From the NCBI RefSeq assembly GCF_024508235.1, contig NZ_CP101943.1, positions 1,240,001-1,304,000 of the forward strand: a DNA stretch of 64,000 nt, read 5' to 3'. The notes below the pieces were generated by a model that saw nothing but the letters and a program-made list of their open reading frames with translations, was not told the origin of the DNA and searched no databases. Each line of letters opens with the position of its first letter. Position 1 is the first letter of the stretch. This DNA comes from Halococcus qingdaonensis (GTDB lineage: Archaea > Halobacteriota > Halobacteria > Halobacteriales > Halococcaceae). The translations under genes and the position numbers were made by a program. This document shows, one piece after another, positions 24,664 through 63,043 of the stretch.

Positions 24664-24894
24664 ATGCAGTTCCGCCGTGGCGAGTTCGAGCGGATTCGGA
24701 CGGTGCTCGCGGAGGCGAACGACGACGACGAGCCGCTGACGGCACGCGAGATTCACGACCGCCTCGCTGCACGCGACGTGGCGCTCGACAGCCCTCACCG
24801 CGTAGCCACCGTGCTGGGACGGCGGGCCGACGCCGGCGATATCGAAGTCATCGAGAGCCAGCCCTACCGCTATCGACTCGTCGATTCGCCGTAG
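24664..24894 (+). CDS. Small winged-helix-like protein
   Basis: A 76-residue protein. 'RGEFERIRTVLAEANDDDEPLTAREIHDRLAARDVALDSPHRVATVLGRRADAGDIEVIESQPYRYRL' has the helix-helix-turn-helix-strand-strand pattern of a compact winged-helix domain with a beta-wing ending 'YRYRLVD'. That suggests DNA binding or a protein-interaction wHTH. It has no other domain. A T6 run at 24909-24914, 15 nt after its stop, probably ends transcription and begins the intergenic repeat region. Confidence 0.75.
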   Translation: MQFRRGEFERIRTVLAEANDDDEPLTAREIHDRLAARDVALDSPHRVATVLGRRADAGDIEVIESQPYRYRLVDSP

Positions 24895-24899
24895 TATCC

Positions 24900-25230
24900 C
24901 GGTGGCCGTTTTTTCTGCTCACTCACAGTTCGATCAGTAGCGTCCCGCTACCGCACCGCCACAGCCCACATACCTCCCCAGCCGATTCGCTCGTCGCTAC
25001 GCTCCTCGCTCATCCACCGTCAGAGCGAAGTCGTTCGGGAGAGCGAAGCTCTCCCGTGATGACGGAAGACGCGAAGCGTCTTCCGAACCACTCTGACGAG
25101 CCTGCACTCGCGTGCTCGTGCAGACCTCGCGCAATGTTCGCGCTCGTGCGCTCGCTATTGTCTGCTCACGGGCGGCTTCGCCGCCCGTTCGCACGGCCAG
25201 CGGGACCTTCGGTCCCGCCCGGCTCGCACA
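24900..25230 (+). repeat. Modular hairpin-rich intergenic repeat, copy A
   Basis: After a T6 run (24909-24914) this gene-free region holds a series of perfect short hairpins with three-base loops. GGGAGAGC-GAA-GCTCTCCC is at 25037-25055, GGAAGACGC-GAA-GCGTCTTCC at 25064-25084, ACGGGCGGC-TTC-GCCGCCCGT at 25168-25188 and GCGGGACC-TTC-GGTCCCGC at 25200-25218. The first two recur, in the same spacing but with altered stems, in copy C near 46.7 kb; the last is matched by a hairpin in copy D. It lies between the small wHTH gene and carB. The remaining ~140 bases to carB show nothing I recognise. Confidence 0.75.
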
Positions 25231-25367
25231 CGAGCGCGAGTGCGCGCCGATGGGATTAGCAATCAGTGTACCGTGGCGTGGCAGAATTTGCTTCGAAAAT
25301 CGAAACTCAGCTACGCATCTCGCAGTGTATCGTCGGGCTTATTACGATGTGCGAACTGGCGTGGGTA

Positions 25368-34401: not shown

Positions 34402-34968
34402 ATGAGCACACGAGACGCCACCGATGAAAGCAGCGAAACCCCGAATGCCGAGCAGCAGCTCGTCGCGGTCGACGAAAACGACGAGCCAGAGGGAATCGTC
34501 GAGCGCCTCGACGCCCACACCGGCGACGGCGTTCGTCACCGCGCCTTTACGGCAATGCTGTTCGACGAGATGGGCAACCTCCTGCTCGCCCAGCGCAGCC
34601 CCGAGAAACGGCTCTGGGACGCCGGCTGGGATGGCACCGTGGCCTCCCACCCCCGCGAGGGCGAGGAGCAGCTCGACGCCACGCGCAAACGACTCGAAGA
34701 GGAACTCGGCGTCACGCCCGACCAGTACGACGATCTCCGGGCGACCGACCGCTTCGAGTACAAACGCTACTACTACGACGAGGGGCTCGAATGGGAGGTC
34801 TGCACCGTCCTGAAGGCGACACTCACCGACACCACGATCGATCCCGACGACAGCGAGGTCGGCGGCGTGCTCTGGGTGCCCTACGAACGCCTCCACGAGC
34901 ATCCGCGCTGGTACCGCCAGCTCGATCTCTGTCCCTGGTTCGAGATCGCCATGCGCCGCGACTTCTAA
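34402..34968 (+). CDS. idi: Isopentenyl-diphosphate delta-isomerase, type I-like
   Basis: A 188-residue NUDIX-fold protein. It shows 'VRHRAFTAMLFDEMGNLLLAQRS', 'WDAGWDGTVASHPREGEEQLDATRKRLEEELGV' and 'FEYKRYYYDEGLEWEVCTVLKA'. It interconverts IPP and DMAPP for isoprenoid lipids. The metal and acid-base Glu in 'GLEWEVC' (Glu132) is present. The position of the E. coli catalytic Cys67 ('SVCGHP') reads 'TVASHP' here, so Ala81 replaces Cys. Another Cys (134) is close in sequence to the Glu. The enzyme may use a variant mechanism common in haloarchaea, or be a diverged NUDIX enzyme. Repeat copy B begins six bases after the stop. Confidence 0.85.
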   Translation: MSTRDATDESSETPNAEQQLVAVDENDEPEGIVERLDAHTGDGVRHRAFTAMLFDEMGNLLLAQRSPEKRLWDAGWDGTVASHPREGEEQLDATRKRLEEELGVTPDQYDDLRATDRFEYKRYYYDEGLEWEVCTVLKATLTDTTIDPDDSEVGGVLWVPYERLHEHPRWYRQLDLCPWFEIAMRRDF

Positions 34969-34973
34969 CACGT

Positions 34974-35215
34974 ACCTTTTTACTGCGTCGGGTACGCTCG
35001 CTTCGCTCGCGTACCGCTCCTTGCAAAAAGCTACGCTAAAAACTCCCGCTCGCGCCTGCGGCGCTCGCGGTGAACCGCGCTCACTACGTTCGCGCGGATG
35101 CTACCGCAACCGCTCTGACAGCACCGCCGAAGCCCTCGGGGCGCGCTCACTCCGTTCGCTACTCGCTCGGCTCCGCCTCGCTCGCGCCCCTCGCCCTTCA
35201 TCCACCAGGAGCTGC
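34974..35215 (+). repeat. Modular hairpin-rich intergenic repeat, copy B
   Basis: The copy begins with ACCTTTTTACTGCG (34974-34987), identical to the start of copy C and placed six bases after the idi stop, where the T-run probably ends transcription. Further shared blocks are a 30-nt block at 35069-35098 that matches copy C at 29 positions, CACCGCCGAAGCCCTCG at 35122-35138 (exact in copy D, reverse strand) and a 21-nt block at 35190-35210 (exact in copy D, one mismatch in C). A near-palindrome with arms GGTACGC/GCGTACC lies close to 35000. No gene is present. Confidence 0.82.
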
Positions 35216-35306: not shown

Positions 35307-36218
35307 ATGGCGACGTGTGACGTCTGCGGCAGATCGGAAAACATGCCGTACCACTGCCGACACTGCGGCGGGACCTTCTGTGGCGAGCACCGTCTGCCCG
35401 AGAGCCACGACTGTCCGGGCCTCGACAACTGGAACGATCCCGAGGGCGTCTTCGACAGCGGGTTCGACGACAGCGTGAACAACCGGGGCGGCGGGTCGTC
35501 GGGCTGGCTCTCGGGGCTGCTCGATACCGGCACCGGCGGCCCGCTCGGCTACTTCCGCGGCAACATGACGTTCGTCTTCCTCGGCCTGATGTTCATCACG
35601 TACGCTCTCCAGTGGGTCGTCCTACTGACTGCGCCCTCGTATCACAACGCTCTCTTCGTCATCTCGCCCGAACATCCACTGTACGTCTGGACGTGGTTCA
35701 CGTCGATATTCGCCCACAGCCCCACCAGCATCACACATATCCTGTTCAATGCTATCGTCATCTACTTCTTCGGCCGCATCGTCGAGAGCTACATCGGCTC
35801 GCGCAATTTCACGCTGCTCTTTCTCGGGAGCGGTGCGCTCGCCGGACTCGGACAGATCGGTATCCAGATGCTCCAAGGCGGTTCGACGGGTGCGCTCGGT
35901 GCGAGCGGTGCCGCGCTCGCTATCTTGGGCGTCCTGACGGTGCTCAATCCGAGCCTGCGGGTATATCTCTACTTCTTCATTCCCGTCCCGATCTGGCTGC
36001 TCACCATCGGTTACGTCGTCATCTCCGTTTCGGGCGTGATCGGTGGGCCGGCCATCGGCGGCGTCGCCAACGCCGCCCACCTCGTCGGTTTACTCGTCGG
36101 GCTCGCCTATGGCCAGCGCGTCAAGGGTCGAAAGCGCATGCCCAATCAGCTTCAGTTCGGCGGCGGGCGCGGCGGTGGCGGCATGGGCGGTCCCGGACGC
36201 GGACGGGGACCGTTCTGA
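35307..36218 (+). CDS. Rhomboid-family intramembrane serine protease with N-terminal zinc finger
   Basis: A 303-residue protein. Residues 1-40 are an AN1-type zinc finger (CDVCGRSENMPYHCRHCGGTFC, then GEHRLPESHDC). An acidic, Gly-rich linker leads to six membrane helices from about residue 90. Rhomboid features are 'FAHSPTSITHILFNAIVIYFFG' (helix 2 with conserved His and Asn), 'GALGASGAALAILG' with the catalytic Ser in GxSG, and 'GVANAAHLVGLLVGLAYG' with the catalytic His. The tail is Gly/Arg-rich. It cleaves membrane proteins within the bilayer; the zinc finger may bind a partner. The stop shares one base with the endonuclease V start (TGATG). Confidence 0.9.
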   Translation: MATCDVCGRSENMPYHCRHCGGTFCGEHRLPESHDCPGLDNWNDPEGVFDSGFDDSVNNRGGGSSGWLSGLLDTGTGGPLGYFRGNMTFVFLGLMFITYALQWVVLLTAPSYHNALFVISPEHPLYVWTWFTSIFAHSPTSITHILFNAIVIYFFGRIVESYIGSRNFTLLFLGSGALAGLGQIGIQMLQGGSTGALGASGAALAILGVLTVLNPSLRVYLYFFIPVPIWLLTIGYVVISVSGVIGGPAIGGVANAAHLVGLLVGLAYGQRVKGRKRMPNQLQFGGGRGGGGMGGPGRGRGPF

Positions 36219-45253: not shown

Positions 45254-46444
45254 ATGGAGACGACGGCGGCGTTCGACGGGCTCATCTGTACGGACTGCGG
45301 TGAACGTTTCGACCCGGAAAGTACGACCCACGACTGTCCCGACTGTGGTGGGTTCCTCGACCCGCGCTACGACCTGAGCCACATCGATCTCGCGCGCGAC
45401 GAGCTCGAAACCCGCCCGTTCGACGGGCTCTGGCGCTACGAGGAGCTCCTTCCCGTGCCCCGCACGGCAGCGGTGACGATGGACGAAGGCACGACACCGC
45501 TCGTCGACTGTCCCGAGCTCGCCGACGAACTCGGCGTCGCACGACTGCTGATCAAGGACGAGGGTCGCAACCCGACGGGGAGTCGCACCGATCGCGGCCA
45601 CGCGCTCGCGGTGTCGGCCGCCCGCGAACACAGCGCGAGCGACGTCGCGCTCGCCACGACGGGCGACGCTGGCCAGTCGGCGGCCGCCTATGCCGCCCGC
45701 GCCGGACTGGACTCCCACGCGTTCGTCCCCACCCGCGCGAACTTCGGCAACAAGGCAATGATCAACGTCCACGGCGGCGATATGAACGTCGTCGAGGGAC
45801 GATACGACGACGCCGCAGCGGCCTGCGCGGGCGCACTGGACGACGAGGACTGGTACGCGACGAACCCCTTCGAGACACCCTATCGCCACGAAGGCGCGAA
45901 GACGATGTTCTACGAGATCGTCGAACAGCTCGATTGGGAGGTGCCCGACGGCATCGTCCAGCCCACCGGCAGCGGTGTCGGGCTCGTCGGTCTCCACAAG
46001 GGTGCGACGGAGTTCGCGGCACTCGGCCTCACCGACGACCTCCCCGGGCTGTACGCCGCCCAGGCGAGCGGCTGTGCGCCGATCGTCGAAGCCTGGGAGG
46101 CGGACGACGACAGTCACGAGCCCTGGGAGGTGCCCGACACGATCTGCGGCGGCATCGAGATCGCCGACCCCCACGGGAGCCCGCTCGTCCTGGACGCCCT
46201 TGACGACGCCGACGGGGGTGCTGTCGCCACCGACGACGAATCGATCCTCGACAGCGCGATCACGGTGGCCCAGCACACCGGCATCGAGATGGGCGCGAGC
46301 AGTGCGGCGGCAGCCAGCGGCGCGTGGGAACTCGCCGAGCAGGACGTGTTCGGGGCCGACGACACGGTCGTGCTCGTAAACGGCGCGAGCGCGAACAAGG
46401 AAGCCGACATCCTCCGCAGCCACCTGATGGGCAAGGGGATCTAG
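45254..46444 (+). CDS. Threonine synthase-like protein lacking the PLP lysine
   Basis: A 396-residue protein. The N-terminal zinc ribbon (CTDCGERFDPESTTHDCPDCGG) and overall length match archaeal threonine synthase. 'MDEGTTPLVDCPEL', 'LLIKDEGRNPTGS', 'ALATTGDAGQSAAAYAARAGLDSHAFVP' and 'ETPYRHEGAKTMFYEI' follow the family. However, the conserved 'SFKDRG' that supplies the Schiff-base Lys reads 'SRTDRG', with Arg111 and Thr112 in the places of Phe and Lys. The usual 'TGNAS' reads 'TGDAG'. It therefore cannot form the normal PLP aldimine at that site and is probably a paralogue with another role. The Met at 45254 starts just before the zinc ribbon. Confidence 0.85.
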   Translation: METTAAFDGLICTDCGERFDPESTTHDCPDCGGFLDPRYDLSHIDLARDELETRPFDGLWRYEELLPVPRTAAVTMDEGTTPLVDCPELADELGVARLLIKDEGRNPTGSRTDRGHALAVSAAREHSASDVALATTGDAGQSAAAYAARAGLDSHAFVPTRANFGNKAMINVHGGDMNVVEGRYDDAAAACAGALDDEDWYATNPFETPYRHEGAKTMFYEIVEQLDWEVPDGIVQPTGSGVGLVGLHKGATEFAALGLTDDLPGLYAAQASGCAPIVEAWEADDDSHEPWEVPDTICGGIEIADPHGSPLVLDALDDADGGAVATDDESILDSAITVAQHTGIEMGASSAAAASGAWELAEQDVFGADDTVVLVNGASANKEADILRSHLMGKGI

Positions 46445-46449
46445 AACCC

Positions 46450-46760
46450 ACCTTTTTACTGCGGAGGGTCGCGCTCGCTCACTTCGTTCGCTCGCTTGAC
46501 CCCCGCTTGCAAAAATCTGGACCAAAAACTCCCGCTCACTCGGCCTTCGGCCTCGTTCACGGTGAACCGCGCTCACTGCGTTCGCGCGGACACGACCGCC
46601 CTCCGCACAACACCGCAGAAGCCCTCGGCGCGCTCCCTTCGGTCGCGGTGTTCGTGGTTCGAGAGAGCTTTGCTCTCTCGTCATCACGAAAGACGCTTCG
46701 CGTCTTTCGAACGACTTCGCTCACACCACGCGCCTCGCCCTTCATCCGCCAGGACCGCAC
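46450..46760 (+). repeat. Modular hairpin-rich intergenic repeat, copy C
   Basis: The copy starts with ACCTTTTTACTGCG (46450-46463), six bases after the threonine-synthase-like stop; copy B begins with the same 14 bases. Later blocks are TTGCAAAAATCTGGACC near 46507, a 30-nt block at 46561-46590 (29 of 30 in B), CACCGCAGAAGCCCTCGG from 46611 and a 21-nt block at 46734-46754 also found in B and D. Between the last two blocks are twin hairpins GAGAGAGC-TTT-GCTCTCTC (46661-46679) and GAAAGACGC-TTC-GCGTCTTTC (46688-46708), the counterparts of the two hairpins in copy A. No gene is present; the last ~90 bases before 46850 are promoter DNA for the LysE gene. Confidence 0.85.
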
Positions 46761-46849: not shown

Positions 46850-47527
46850 ATGTCCGTTCTCGGGACGGTGACGACGGTGCTCGCGGGGATGGTCTTCGGG
46901 CTGGCCATCGCCGCGCCACCGGGACCGATGAACGCGGTCATCGCCGAGGAGAGCGTTCTCAGAGGATGGCTCTCGGGCGTCTGGGCCGGTCTCGGTGCGA
47001 TGGCTGCCGACGCCTGCTTCTTCGTGCTCGCGCTGGTCGGCGTGGTCGCGATCGTCGAGCGCGTCCCGGCGATCCGTGGCGCGGCCTTCGCGATCGGCGG
47101 CCTGTTGATGCTCTATTTCGCCTACGATGCGACTCGCGGCGCGAACGACGACCACGCGGCGGCCACCGGCGAGCGCCGCGGGTTCGCCAAGGCGTTCGCT
47201 CTCGCCATCACGAACCCCTATCAGGTGGTGTTCTGGCTCACCATCGGCGTCGGCATGCTCGAACCCGGGCGGATCGACGTACTCGAACCGCTATCGAGCG
47301 AGCTCGCCGGAACGCTGGTCGTCGCGACGGGCAGTCCGGCACTGCTCGTCGGCTTCTTCGCCGGTATCGCCGCGTGGGTCGTGGGTTTTCCGACGACGCT
47401 GGTCGCGGCCGAACGCCGCCTTACTGGTGTCGGCTCAACTGTGGCCTACGCGAGCGCGCTCGTGCTCGCGGGGTTCGGCGTGGCCTTCCTTGGCGAGGCG
47501 CTCGCGCTGCTCGGCTCAGTCGTCTGA
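46850..47527 (+). CDS. LysE-family exporter
   Basis: A 225-residue membrane protein with six hydrophobic helices, typical LysE/RhtB size. The diagnostic first segment is 'GMVFGLAIAAPPGPMNAVIAEESVLRGWLSGVWAGLGAMAAD', with the PPGP motif, and 'KAFALAITNPYQVVFWLTIGVGM' is the conserved central Asn-Pro helix. Members export amino acids or related small molecules; the substrate is not visible. The ATG at 46850 was chosen because it places the first helix at the N-terminus; the in-frame region upstream is the repeat. It overlaps the convergent HD gene by 12 nt. Confidence 0.88.
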   Translation: MSVLGTVTTVLAGMVFGLAIAAPPGPMNAVIAEESVLRGWLSGVWAGLGAMAADACFFVLALVGVVAIVERVPAIRGAAFAIGGLLMLYFAYDATRGANDDHAAATGERRGFAKAFALAITNPYQVVFWLTIGVGMLEPGRIDVLEPLSSELAGTLVVATGSPALLVGFFAGIAAWVVGFPTTLVAAERRLTGVGSTVAYASALVLAGFGVAFLGEALALLGSVV

Positions 47528-61871: not shown

Positions 61872-61912
61872 GGGCCACGGGGCTTTTGCGTGCGGCGCTC
61901 CCACCGAGAGTG

Positions 61913-62596
61913 ATGCCAAGCGCACTGTTCGTCGTCAGCGAGGAAGGCTACTGGGGAGAGGAATGTACGACACCGCTCACGATGCTCTCGGATGCGGGCG
62001 TCGAGATCACCGTGGCGACGCCGAGCGGTTCGCCGCCGGTGATCGACGAGCGCTCGATCGATCCCGACGAGGTCGGTGAGGAGACCGCCGAGGAGGTCAC
62101 GGAGATCCACGAGTCCGACGAGCGCCTGAACGACCCGATCCCGGTCGCGACCGCCGACGCCGACAACTACGATCTCGTGGCCTTTCCCGGTGGCCACGGT
62201 ACCGAGTGGGACGTCAACCAGGACAGTCACGCCCGCGCGCTGCTCGTCGATGCGGTCTCCGGCGATGAGGGCAAAGGCTACGTCGTCTGCCACGCGGCGG
62301 GCATCCTTGCCTTCGCCCGCGAGGACGATGGCTCGGCGATCGTCGAAGGCCGTGACGTGACCGGGTTCCCCAATGCGTGGGAGGAGGGGATCGTCGACGA
62401 TCACGACCGAATGCCCGACGGCCGGAAGCTCCCCTACTGGGTCGAGGACGAGGTCAAAGCCGTCGGCGGCAACTGGGACGCCGAACTCGACGCCGACACG
62501 AGCGTAACCGTCGATGGCGATCTCGTCACCGCTCGCGGCCCCGGCTCCTCGGCCGCCGGTGGCGAGAAACTGCTCGAAGAGCTGGATATCGAGTAG
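61913..62596 (+). CDS. DJ-1/PfpI-family protein (Hsp31/glyoxalase III-like)
   Basis: A 227-residue class I glutamine-amidotransferase-like protein. 'SALFVVSEEGYWGEECTTPLTMLSDAGVEITVATPSGSPPVID' is the N-terminal core with an acidic residue near the active site. 'YDLVAFPGGHGTEWDVNQDSHARAL' is the glycine-rich loop, and 'GYVVCHAAGILAFAR' carries the nucleophile Cys126 and adjacent His127. 'TGFPNAWEEGIV' resembles the Hsp31/YhbO-type loop. It probably acts as a glyoxalase III or deglycase-like stress protein. The start at 61913 follows the hpt stop by 41 nt. Confidence 0.88.
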   Translation: MPSALFVVSEEGYWGEECTTPLTMLSDAGVEITVATPSGSPPVIDERSIDPDEVGEETAEEVTEIHESDERLNDPIPVATADADNYDLVAFPGGHGTEWDVNQDSHARALLVDAVSGDEGKGYVVCHAAGILAFAREDDGSAIVEGRDVTGFPNAWEEGIVDDHDRMPDGRKLPYWVEDEVKAVGGNWDAELDADTSVTVDGDLVTARGPGSSAAGGEKLLEELDIE

Positions 62597-62699
62597 TTCA
62601 GTTGAGGATGACGCTGTGGTGCGGCCGCGCGACCGCGGTGCGGCGCGGTTCCTGGTGTCTCGGCGAGCGACGCGAGCCGAGGCTCAGGAGAGTTTACTT

Positions 62700-62968
62700 T
62701 CCTGGTGGATGAAGGGCGAGTAGCGAGGGACCGAAGGTCCCTCGTACCGTGCGAGCGGGCCTCTGGCCCGCGAGCAGACGACCACAGGGAGCGAGGGCTT
62801 CGGCGGTGCGGTAGCGGTGCCGTGCGGTTGCGGAGATGATAGGCTGCTCTACCGCGAGCGAACGGAGTGATCGAGCGGGCCGACGACTGACCAGCGGGAA
62901 GGAGGAGGCTTTTGGTGCAGATTTTGCGAGGGAGCGAACGAAGTGAGCGACCGTAGCAAAAGGTGCAG
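62700..62968 (-). repeat. Modular hairpin-rich intergenic repeat, copy D (reverse)
   Basis: Read on the minus strand this copy begins CTGCACCTTTTGC at 62968, directly after the last base of the initiator tRNA-Met, so its T-run is where tRNA transcription would end. Blocks in order are one resembling copy C 'GCAAAATCTGCACCAAAA' (about 62930-62910), CACCGCCGAAGCCCTCG (62808-62792, exact in B) and a 21-nt block (62720-62700, exact in B). A perfect hairpin, CGAGGGACC-GAA-GGTCCCTCG, is at 62724-62744. The remaining stretch from the DJ-1 gene stop to 62700 shows no gene. Confidence 0.8.
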
Positions 62969-63043
62969 TAGCGGGAGGTAGATTTGAACTACCGGTCTGC
63001 GGGTTATGAGCCCGCCGGAATCTCCTGGCTATCCCATCCCGCT
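62969..63043 (-). tRNA. Initiator tRNA-Met (CAT anticodon)
   Basis: A 75-nt cloverleaf read on the minus strand from 63043. Acceptor arm AGCGGGA pairs with TCCCGCT followed by discriminator A. The D-arm is 'GGATAGCCAGGAGATTCC'-like; the anticodon arm GCGGG-CTCATAA-CCCGC has CAT and three consecutive G-C pairs, an initiator hallmark; the T-arm GGTAG-TTCAAAT-CTACC is intact. The first pair is A-T at position 1-72, also typical of initiators. CCA is not encoded. Repeat copy D starts at the next base. Confidence 0.96.

Follow-up and report, generated by a model that had tools for sequence, protein, structure and literature searches.

A composite palindromic element was identified behind genes and tRNAs of this Halococcus-type genome, and it is probably an ancient haloarchaeal transcription boundary, that is, an asymmetric two-way terminator whose copies would be homogenised by recombination and would not be mobile at present. 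This reading is drawn from sequence comparison. The window, meaning the whole stretch of 64,000 nucleotides that was analysed, covered positions 1240001-1304000 of the 2.70 Mb single-contig genome and contained copies A to D (Table 1). Gene calling relied on codon usage, with the window as training set, and tRNAs were called by ARAGORN.

Copies in the window

A preliminary description of the window had reported shared blocks in four gene-free regions, and on direct reading, with the motif positions rechecked, each block was located where it had been placed. Copies B and C started with the identical ACCTTTTTACTGCG six bases past the stop codon, copy D started with a T-run right after tRNA-Met in the orientation of the tRNA, and copy A had its T6 near a stop codon, all as described. 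The 30-nt block of B and C, given as 29/30, had a single difference, at the unpaired middle position of a triloop. CACCGCCGAAGCCCTCG was exact in B and D and had one change in copy C, and the same was true of a 21-nt block. The four regions had been taken as one family, which stands for B, C and D. Copy A did not have their tail, and only inserted hairpin modules were common to A and D/C. It ended in CACATACCTCCCCAGCCGATTCGCTC..., a tail type common to other head-bearing sites, and this second tail family was genus-wide, with 23 copies in this genome and 20-34 per other Halococcus species.

Table 1. Element features in the window, numbered from its first nucleotide
Feature	Position	Strand	Context
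Copy B, whole element, head to tail	34974..35210	+	Between CDS 34402-34968 (+) and CDS 35343-36218 (+)
ACCTTTTTACTGCG	34974-34987 (copy B), 46450-46463 (copy C)	+	First base is the sixth after the stop codon in both copies
Copy B T5 run (sense U-tract)	34977..34981	+	8 nt past stop codon
Copy B triplet flanking T5 run, GTA			Pairs with TAC after the A-run
Copy B CAAAAAGCTACGCTAAAAA	35024..35042	-	Two T5 runs on the minus strand, U-tracts for tail-to-head transcription
Copy B hairpin 3 block (30-nt block of the preliminary description)	35069..35098	+	
Copy B CACCGCCGAAGCCCTCG, variable hairpins and tail	35122..35210	+	
Copy B tail CTCGCCCTTCATCCACCAGGA	35190-35210	+	
Copy C, whole element	46450..46754	+	After CDS 45254-46444 (+; PALP family), before CDS 46850-47527 (+)
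Copy C T5 run	46453..46457	+	8 nt past stop codon
Copy C CAAAAATCTGGACCAAAAA, the pan-haloarchaeal head motif	46510..46528	-	Two T5 runs on the minus strand
Copy C hairpin 3 block	46561..46590	+	
Copy C CACCGCAGAAGCCCTCG, inserted two-hairpin module and tail	46611..46754	+	Module ~46655-46715; tail 46734-46754
Copy D, whole element	62700..62964	-	Directly after tRNA-Met (62968-63043, -); convergent with CDS 61910-62596 (+)
Copy D start ACCTTTTGCT	62964-62955	-	Run is T4
Copy D optional tail extension CTCTCCTGAGCC..GAGACACCAGG	62651..62699	-	
Copy A, sister family	24909..25248	+	T6 begins after 14 nt following TAG (24892-24894)
Copy A second tail type, with inserted hairpin modules	24967-24992 and 25228-25248	+	

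Anatomy and base pairing

On the plus strand, the element began 3-15 nt behind the gene end with CCAC-T5/6 (the T-run), followed by hairpin 1, GCAAAAA-N-CTGGAC-N-AAAAAC (the two A-runs), hairpin 2, GGTGAACCGCGCTC, hairpin 3, GCGCGGA, a spacer, CACCGCMGAAGCCCTCG, variable hairpins, the tail YTCGCCCTTCATCCRCCAGG and an optional extension. Larger two-hairpin modules sat in the loops of some copies. One such module, GTTCGAGAGAGC..CGTCATCACG..GCGTCTTTCGAAC, was observed in copy C (Table 1) and at about 25033-25090, and it also occurred on plasmids of Natrinema, Haladaptatus, Haloterrigena and others with 81-95% identity, once beside a transposase gene, so it may move by itself.

In 106 of the 131 distinct heads, the triplet preceding the T-run was fully complementary to the one that follows the first A-run (mean of the shuffles 56, highest 67), with the types CCA/TGG, GTA/TAC, GAA/TTC, CGA/TCG, GGA/TCC and GCA/TGC. 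Since the flanking triplets covary, hairpin 1 forms a long stem whose two arms hold the T-run and the A-run, respectively. A recurring 14-mer, G[C/T]TC-X-Y-TNC-Y'-X'-TC[G/A], could pair at three positions. X and X' made a Watson-Crick pair in 76/80 cases in this genome and 154/161 in relatives versus 29 and 56 after shuffling, which preserves column composition and not relatedness, so these counts are not probabilities, and more weight lies with the different pair types seen among paralogous copies (A-T, G-C and C-G were all common). On this comparative evidence, the base pairing is proven by compensatory changes. With about 50 copies and compensatory pairing, the element is an imperfect palindrome in many extragenic copies, as REP and BIME sequences are.

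Copy number and distribution

The B/C/D family had about 50 copies in the genome. A genome-wide search confirmed that the repeats are real: the 20-mer tail CTCGCCCTTCATCCACCAGG gave 53 matches at up to 2 mismatches, and its reversed control gave 0. The A-run motif CAAAAANCTNSACYAAAA mostly marked the same places as the tail, with a noisier control (33 matches at two mismatches).

There were 32-70 tail copies in each of ten Halococcus genomes and 0-1 in the other three genera of the family, and the named matches were mostly from Halococcus morrhuae and H. thailandensis. Otherwise stray copies of the tail occurred in nine other genera, and 14 were counted in SW_6_65_15, a MAG placed in a different family, where they could result from transfer or from contaminating Halococcus contigs. 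The tail is essentially Halococcus-specific. Nine bacterial contigs were matched by the 20-mer as well, where chance would give roughly one; a coding motif may be the reason.

The CTGGAC-type head was present in 71/118 genomes and 32/48 sampled haloarchaeal genera, again at gene ends, with essentially nothing in the reversed control; only this type was counted, and heads of the CTACGC, GTTCAT, CTCCAC and CTCGAC types exist besides it, so the distribution is a lower bound. The best explanation, probable as a whole, would be an ancestral head that was extended in Halococcus by one of two genus-specific tails. The phage records searched gave no match to the element, and on plasmids little was found beyond the inserted modules. 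In other genera the head motif was also seen in tandem arrays with units of about 92-119 bp (G107:C1:2041908-2042162, G118:C1:2928634-2928846 and G053:C1:1541318).

Placement at gene ends and promoters

The preference for gene 3' ends suggested earlier was borne out. Among 47 headed copies, 38 came after a same-strand gene or tRNA, with the T-run 3-15 nt behind it in 35/38; at least one of the three exceptions resembles a missed gene. The other 9/47 adjoined the promoter of a gene pointing away, with the T-run 34-52 nt before its start codon in 9/9, so the claim that the element always starts at a transcription end is true of most headed copies and fails for these nine. The promoter-side copies sit just outside the probable core promoter. 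Two plasmid copies in RefSeq annotation, independent of our gene calls, comprised one gene-end and one promoter-side copy. At the other gene ends of the window, a run of at least five T within 90 nt of the stop codon was present in only 3 of about 60 cases, and since ordinary window genes seldom have T5 there, the T-run is part of the element. In other genera the T-run stood 5-26 nt after the stop codon in 43/58; in both sets (35/38 and 43/58) a T-stretch came soon after the gene end, as in archaeal U-tract terminators. Neighbour arrangements were ++ 20, +- 19, -+ 5 and -- 5 for all Halococcus copies with two called neighbours, and ++ 28, +- 28, -- 11 and -+ 1 in seven other genera. At one element (genome position 2088822) a G/C homopolymer palindrome stood in place of hairpin 1 and the head adjoined an apparent tRNA 3' half, which may be an assembly error or real.

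The preceding genes were mostly core genes, including those for aconitase, SUI1, acyl-CoA dehydrogenase, the beta subunit of 2-oxoacid:ferredoxin oxidoreductase, RadA, PCNA, HemA, a PAN-like AAA ATPase, TFS, DnaJ, a PLP enzyme (copy C), PhoU, citrate synthase, CDP-archaeol synthase, thermosome, EF-2 and Hsp20, together with tRNA-Arg (twice), tRNA-Met, tRNA-Pro and tRNA-Leu. Judging from their roles, these would be highly expressed. In the other genera, 14 of 60 upstream CDS were homologous to the 44 Halococcus upstream genes, with 49-85% protein identity and mostly equal spacing, orthology being assigned by BLAST alone; we estimate that about 1 would be expected by chance for random sites among ~2,700 genes. 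One site shared across genera is promoter-side, with orientation and spacing kept (44 and 46 nt).

The folding strand

The 2x2 internal loops on the plus strand of the element were TC/TC in 232 cases versus GA/GA in 9, and 38 versus 3 in seven other genera. Read on the complementary strand, the TC/TC loops turn into tandem G-A and the TNC triloops into GNA, both of which are very stable motifs, the G-A pairs in their sheared form. The GCGAAGC mini-hairpin, as DNA, melts at 78 C (PMC4686876). Since it carries these motifs, the tail-to-head strand is the one built to fold, and it lies opposite to the abutted gene. In this direction a hairpin abutted a U-tract in 47/47 Halococcus copies and 70/70 elsewhere, with a spacing of 0-8 nt (nearly all 0-5), which is the bacterial-type arrangement of a hairpin directly followed by a U-tract.

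Energy measures gave less. A generic contiguous-stem terminator scan did not pick out the copies or find them enriched, and the energy of the hairpin beside the U-tract was not above the background of the GC-rich genome. Folding of the whole element as RNA gave z of about -1.9 (sense) and -2.4 (antisense) against dinucleotide shuffles, a mild excess of stability. Neither of these two energies serves as evidence here. An RNA energy strand bias of the whole element (69/70) was dropped as evidence because dinucleotide shuffles account for most of it. Among non-Watson-Crick cells of the hairpins, the G-U bias was 14 to 10, favouring neither strand, and since near-miss pairs have no strand-specific G-U bias, RNA and DNA folding are inseparable here.

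Age and turnover

The sampled tails of H. morrhuae and H. thailandensis numbered 49. For 42 of them both flanks corresponded to a site of this genome, and for 2 a single flank did, with the same orientation, and they did not have the insertion polymorphism of a MITE or active mobile repeat. In a more distant MAG (70-85% flank identity), one flank or both matched in 10/12; towards distant Halococcus species, synteny over the window was too fragmented for site-by-site reading. No empty site was found for comparison, and no terminal inverted repeats or target-site duplications were noticed by eye. PF01797 (Y1, TnpA-REP transposase) was absent from two genomes with 70 and 51 tail copies, which were 97% and 99% complete. 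Two loci which had been candidates for sites absent here were really a single shared site, whose copy in this genome (928980-930338) is interrupted by about 1.2 kb of inserted sequence, probably an IS element, so the repeats can be insertion targets.

At fixed sites, flanking genes could be 95% identical, yet the hairpins and even the head type could be wholly different, with the module joints conserved. The simplest reading would be that ectopic gene conversion between copies drives the exchange of hairpins. Template switching at palindromes would leave the kept TC/TC loops unexplained. In H. morrhuae, one locus (L130) compared with 310199 and 312625 of our genome indicated inversion or exchange between two inverted copies flanking a tRNA-Arg region.

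Proposed function and alternatives

In the proposed mechanism, RNA polymerase coming from the gene side would meet the T5-T6 run about 15 nt or less past the stop codon or tRNA end, and stop. In Haloferax volcanii in vivo, a T5C stretch gave 95% termination, and hairpins lay upstream of some termination sites (PMC7237163). Since T5C terminates there, the near-side T-run should end the gene's own transcript, and if transcripts stop at this run, most of the element is untranscribed from the gene side, so the pairing needs another reason. From the far side, the opposite strand would be read as hairpins of short helices with tandem G-A pairs and GNA triloops, of which the last would abut a U5 tract, with a second U-tract about 8 nt on. 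Transcription entering from downstream would then end before the protected gene end or promoter. In convergent pairs both gene ends would be served, in tandem pairs the gene would be shielded from antisense transcription, and promoter-side copies would shield the promoter from readthrough. The sequence in the sites would be turned over by module exchange, and selection would keep each site with its gene. Of this scheme, the comparisons show the layout, pairing, strand asymmetry, placement and lasting positions, and termination from either side, selection for it and gene conversion are the inferred parts. More tentatively, and with the balance slightly against it, a wider formulation can be given, in which the element represents a pan-haloarchaeal boundary class: its working strand would be opposite to the protected gene, with ladders of tandem sheared G-A pairs and GNA caps, and it would accompany the same housekeeping genes across families with its hairpins rewritten by recombination between copies.

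Several observations count against termination, among them the missing G-U bias (14 to 10), where selected RNA folding might give one, the mild excess of whole-element stability, the ordinary hairpin energy beside the U-tract, the terminator scan that passed over the copies, and the few copies between divergent genes, where no mRNA ends. An unlikely reading, which treats termination as incidental, would place the boundary at the DNA level, with the palindromes acting as a cruciform, a single-strand hairpin or a site for chromosomal protein or topoisomerase at the ends of busy units, as proposed for bacterial BIMEs. It would account for a head palindrome that takes in the T-run, the A-run and the flanking triplets, which terminated transcripts would not contain, for wobble cells symmetric between strands, and for upstream genes of a typically highly expressed kind; GNA triloops and d(GCGAAGC) are also extremely stable as DNA (PMC4686876). 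It does not agree with T-runs a few nt past stop codons, where archaeal termination is expected, or with the hairpin and U-tract geometry on the other strand in every copy. Strong hairpins beside gene ends might instead act in the RNA, stabilising mRNA 3' ends or yielding small RNAs, and convergent genes would have the G-A ladders in their 3' UTR. We regard this as quite improbable: the best-folding strand is opposite to the abutted gene, and in 20 tandem (++) copies that strand is without a nearby coding gene.

The earlier suggestion of a mobile repeat targeting terminators, here a REP/MITE-type repeat inserting beside them, is very improbable as an account of the present state, even with a multi-copy, modular and palindromic element whose inserted modules are also present in Natrinema, Haladaptatus and further haloarchaea and whose tail has a few copies in distant genera. 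Sites were fixed across Halococcus (42/49 sister-species copies at the same site on both flanks, one unmatched pair also at the same site, and 10/12 in a more distant species on one flank or both), the association with genes, often the same ones, was shared across haloarchaeal families, and no Y1 transposase tracked the copies, its genes not being found in the two species examined, which have 70 and 51 of them; phage records gave no match. Single inserted hairpin modules may still move. The companion suggestion of a composite terminator or 3' element fared better, being supported by the precise placement after stop codons and tRNAs, the conservation at gene ends across families and the T-runs on both strands.

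Comparison with known systems

That the element matches no named one was also stated before, and this holds for Rfam, where a search of the whole window with Rfam 15 gave a tRNA as the sole match above the gathering score, and for the literature searched on haloarchaeal intergenic repeats, MITEs, REPs and bidirectional terminators, in which no description was found, most subscription journals lying outside the search. If the proposed function is true, haloarchaea would mark selected core-gene ends with a composite element that is apparently nameless in those sources, archaeal termination would gain a structured two-way form, long unannotated intergenic palindromes in many genomes would be explained, and the element would be an unusually clear case of fixed sites with sequence evolving by module exchange.

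Archaeal U-tract terminators of the Haloferax T5C type (PMC7237163) resemble the element in having T5-T6 a few nt past the stop codon and hairpins near some sites. The element differs in that its T-run forms one arm of a palindrome, that hairpin modules in a set order extend over the next 150-300 bp, and that it recurs at dozens of sites linked to the same genes in different genera. Bacterial REP/BIME sequences (PMC2817692, PMC3733652, PMC12306157) are likewise extragenic composite palindromes near gene ends, with mismatched stems, many copies and insertion by IS elements, whereas the element needs no associated RAYT transposase, has its head a fixed few nt from stop codons, and keeps its sites across families; no GTAG/CGTC tag was noticed in it, without systematic search. 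Intrinsic terminators as described are without its G-A ladder and modular tail. Bacterial bidirectional Rho-independent terminators between convergent genes, as generally known (compare PMC1852404), share the far-side hairpin with U-tract and the near-side U-tract; the element differs from them in its G-A ladder stems, asymmetric layout and multiple hairpins, and in that it also occupies tandem and promoter-side settings.
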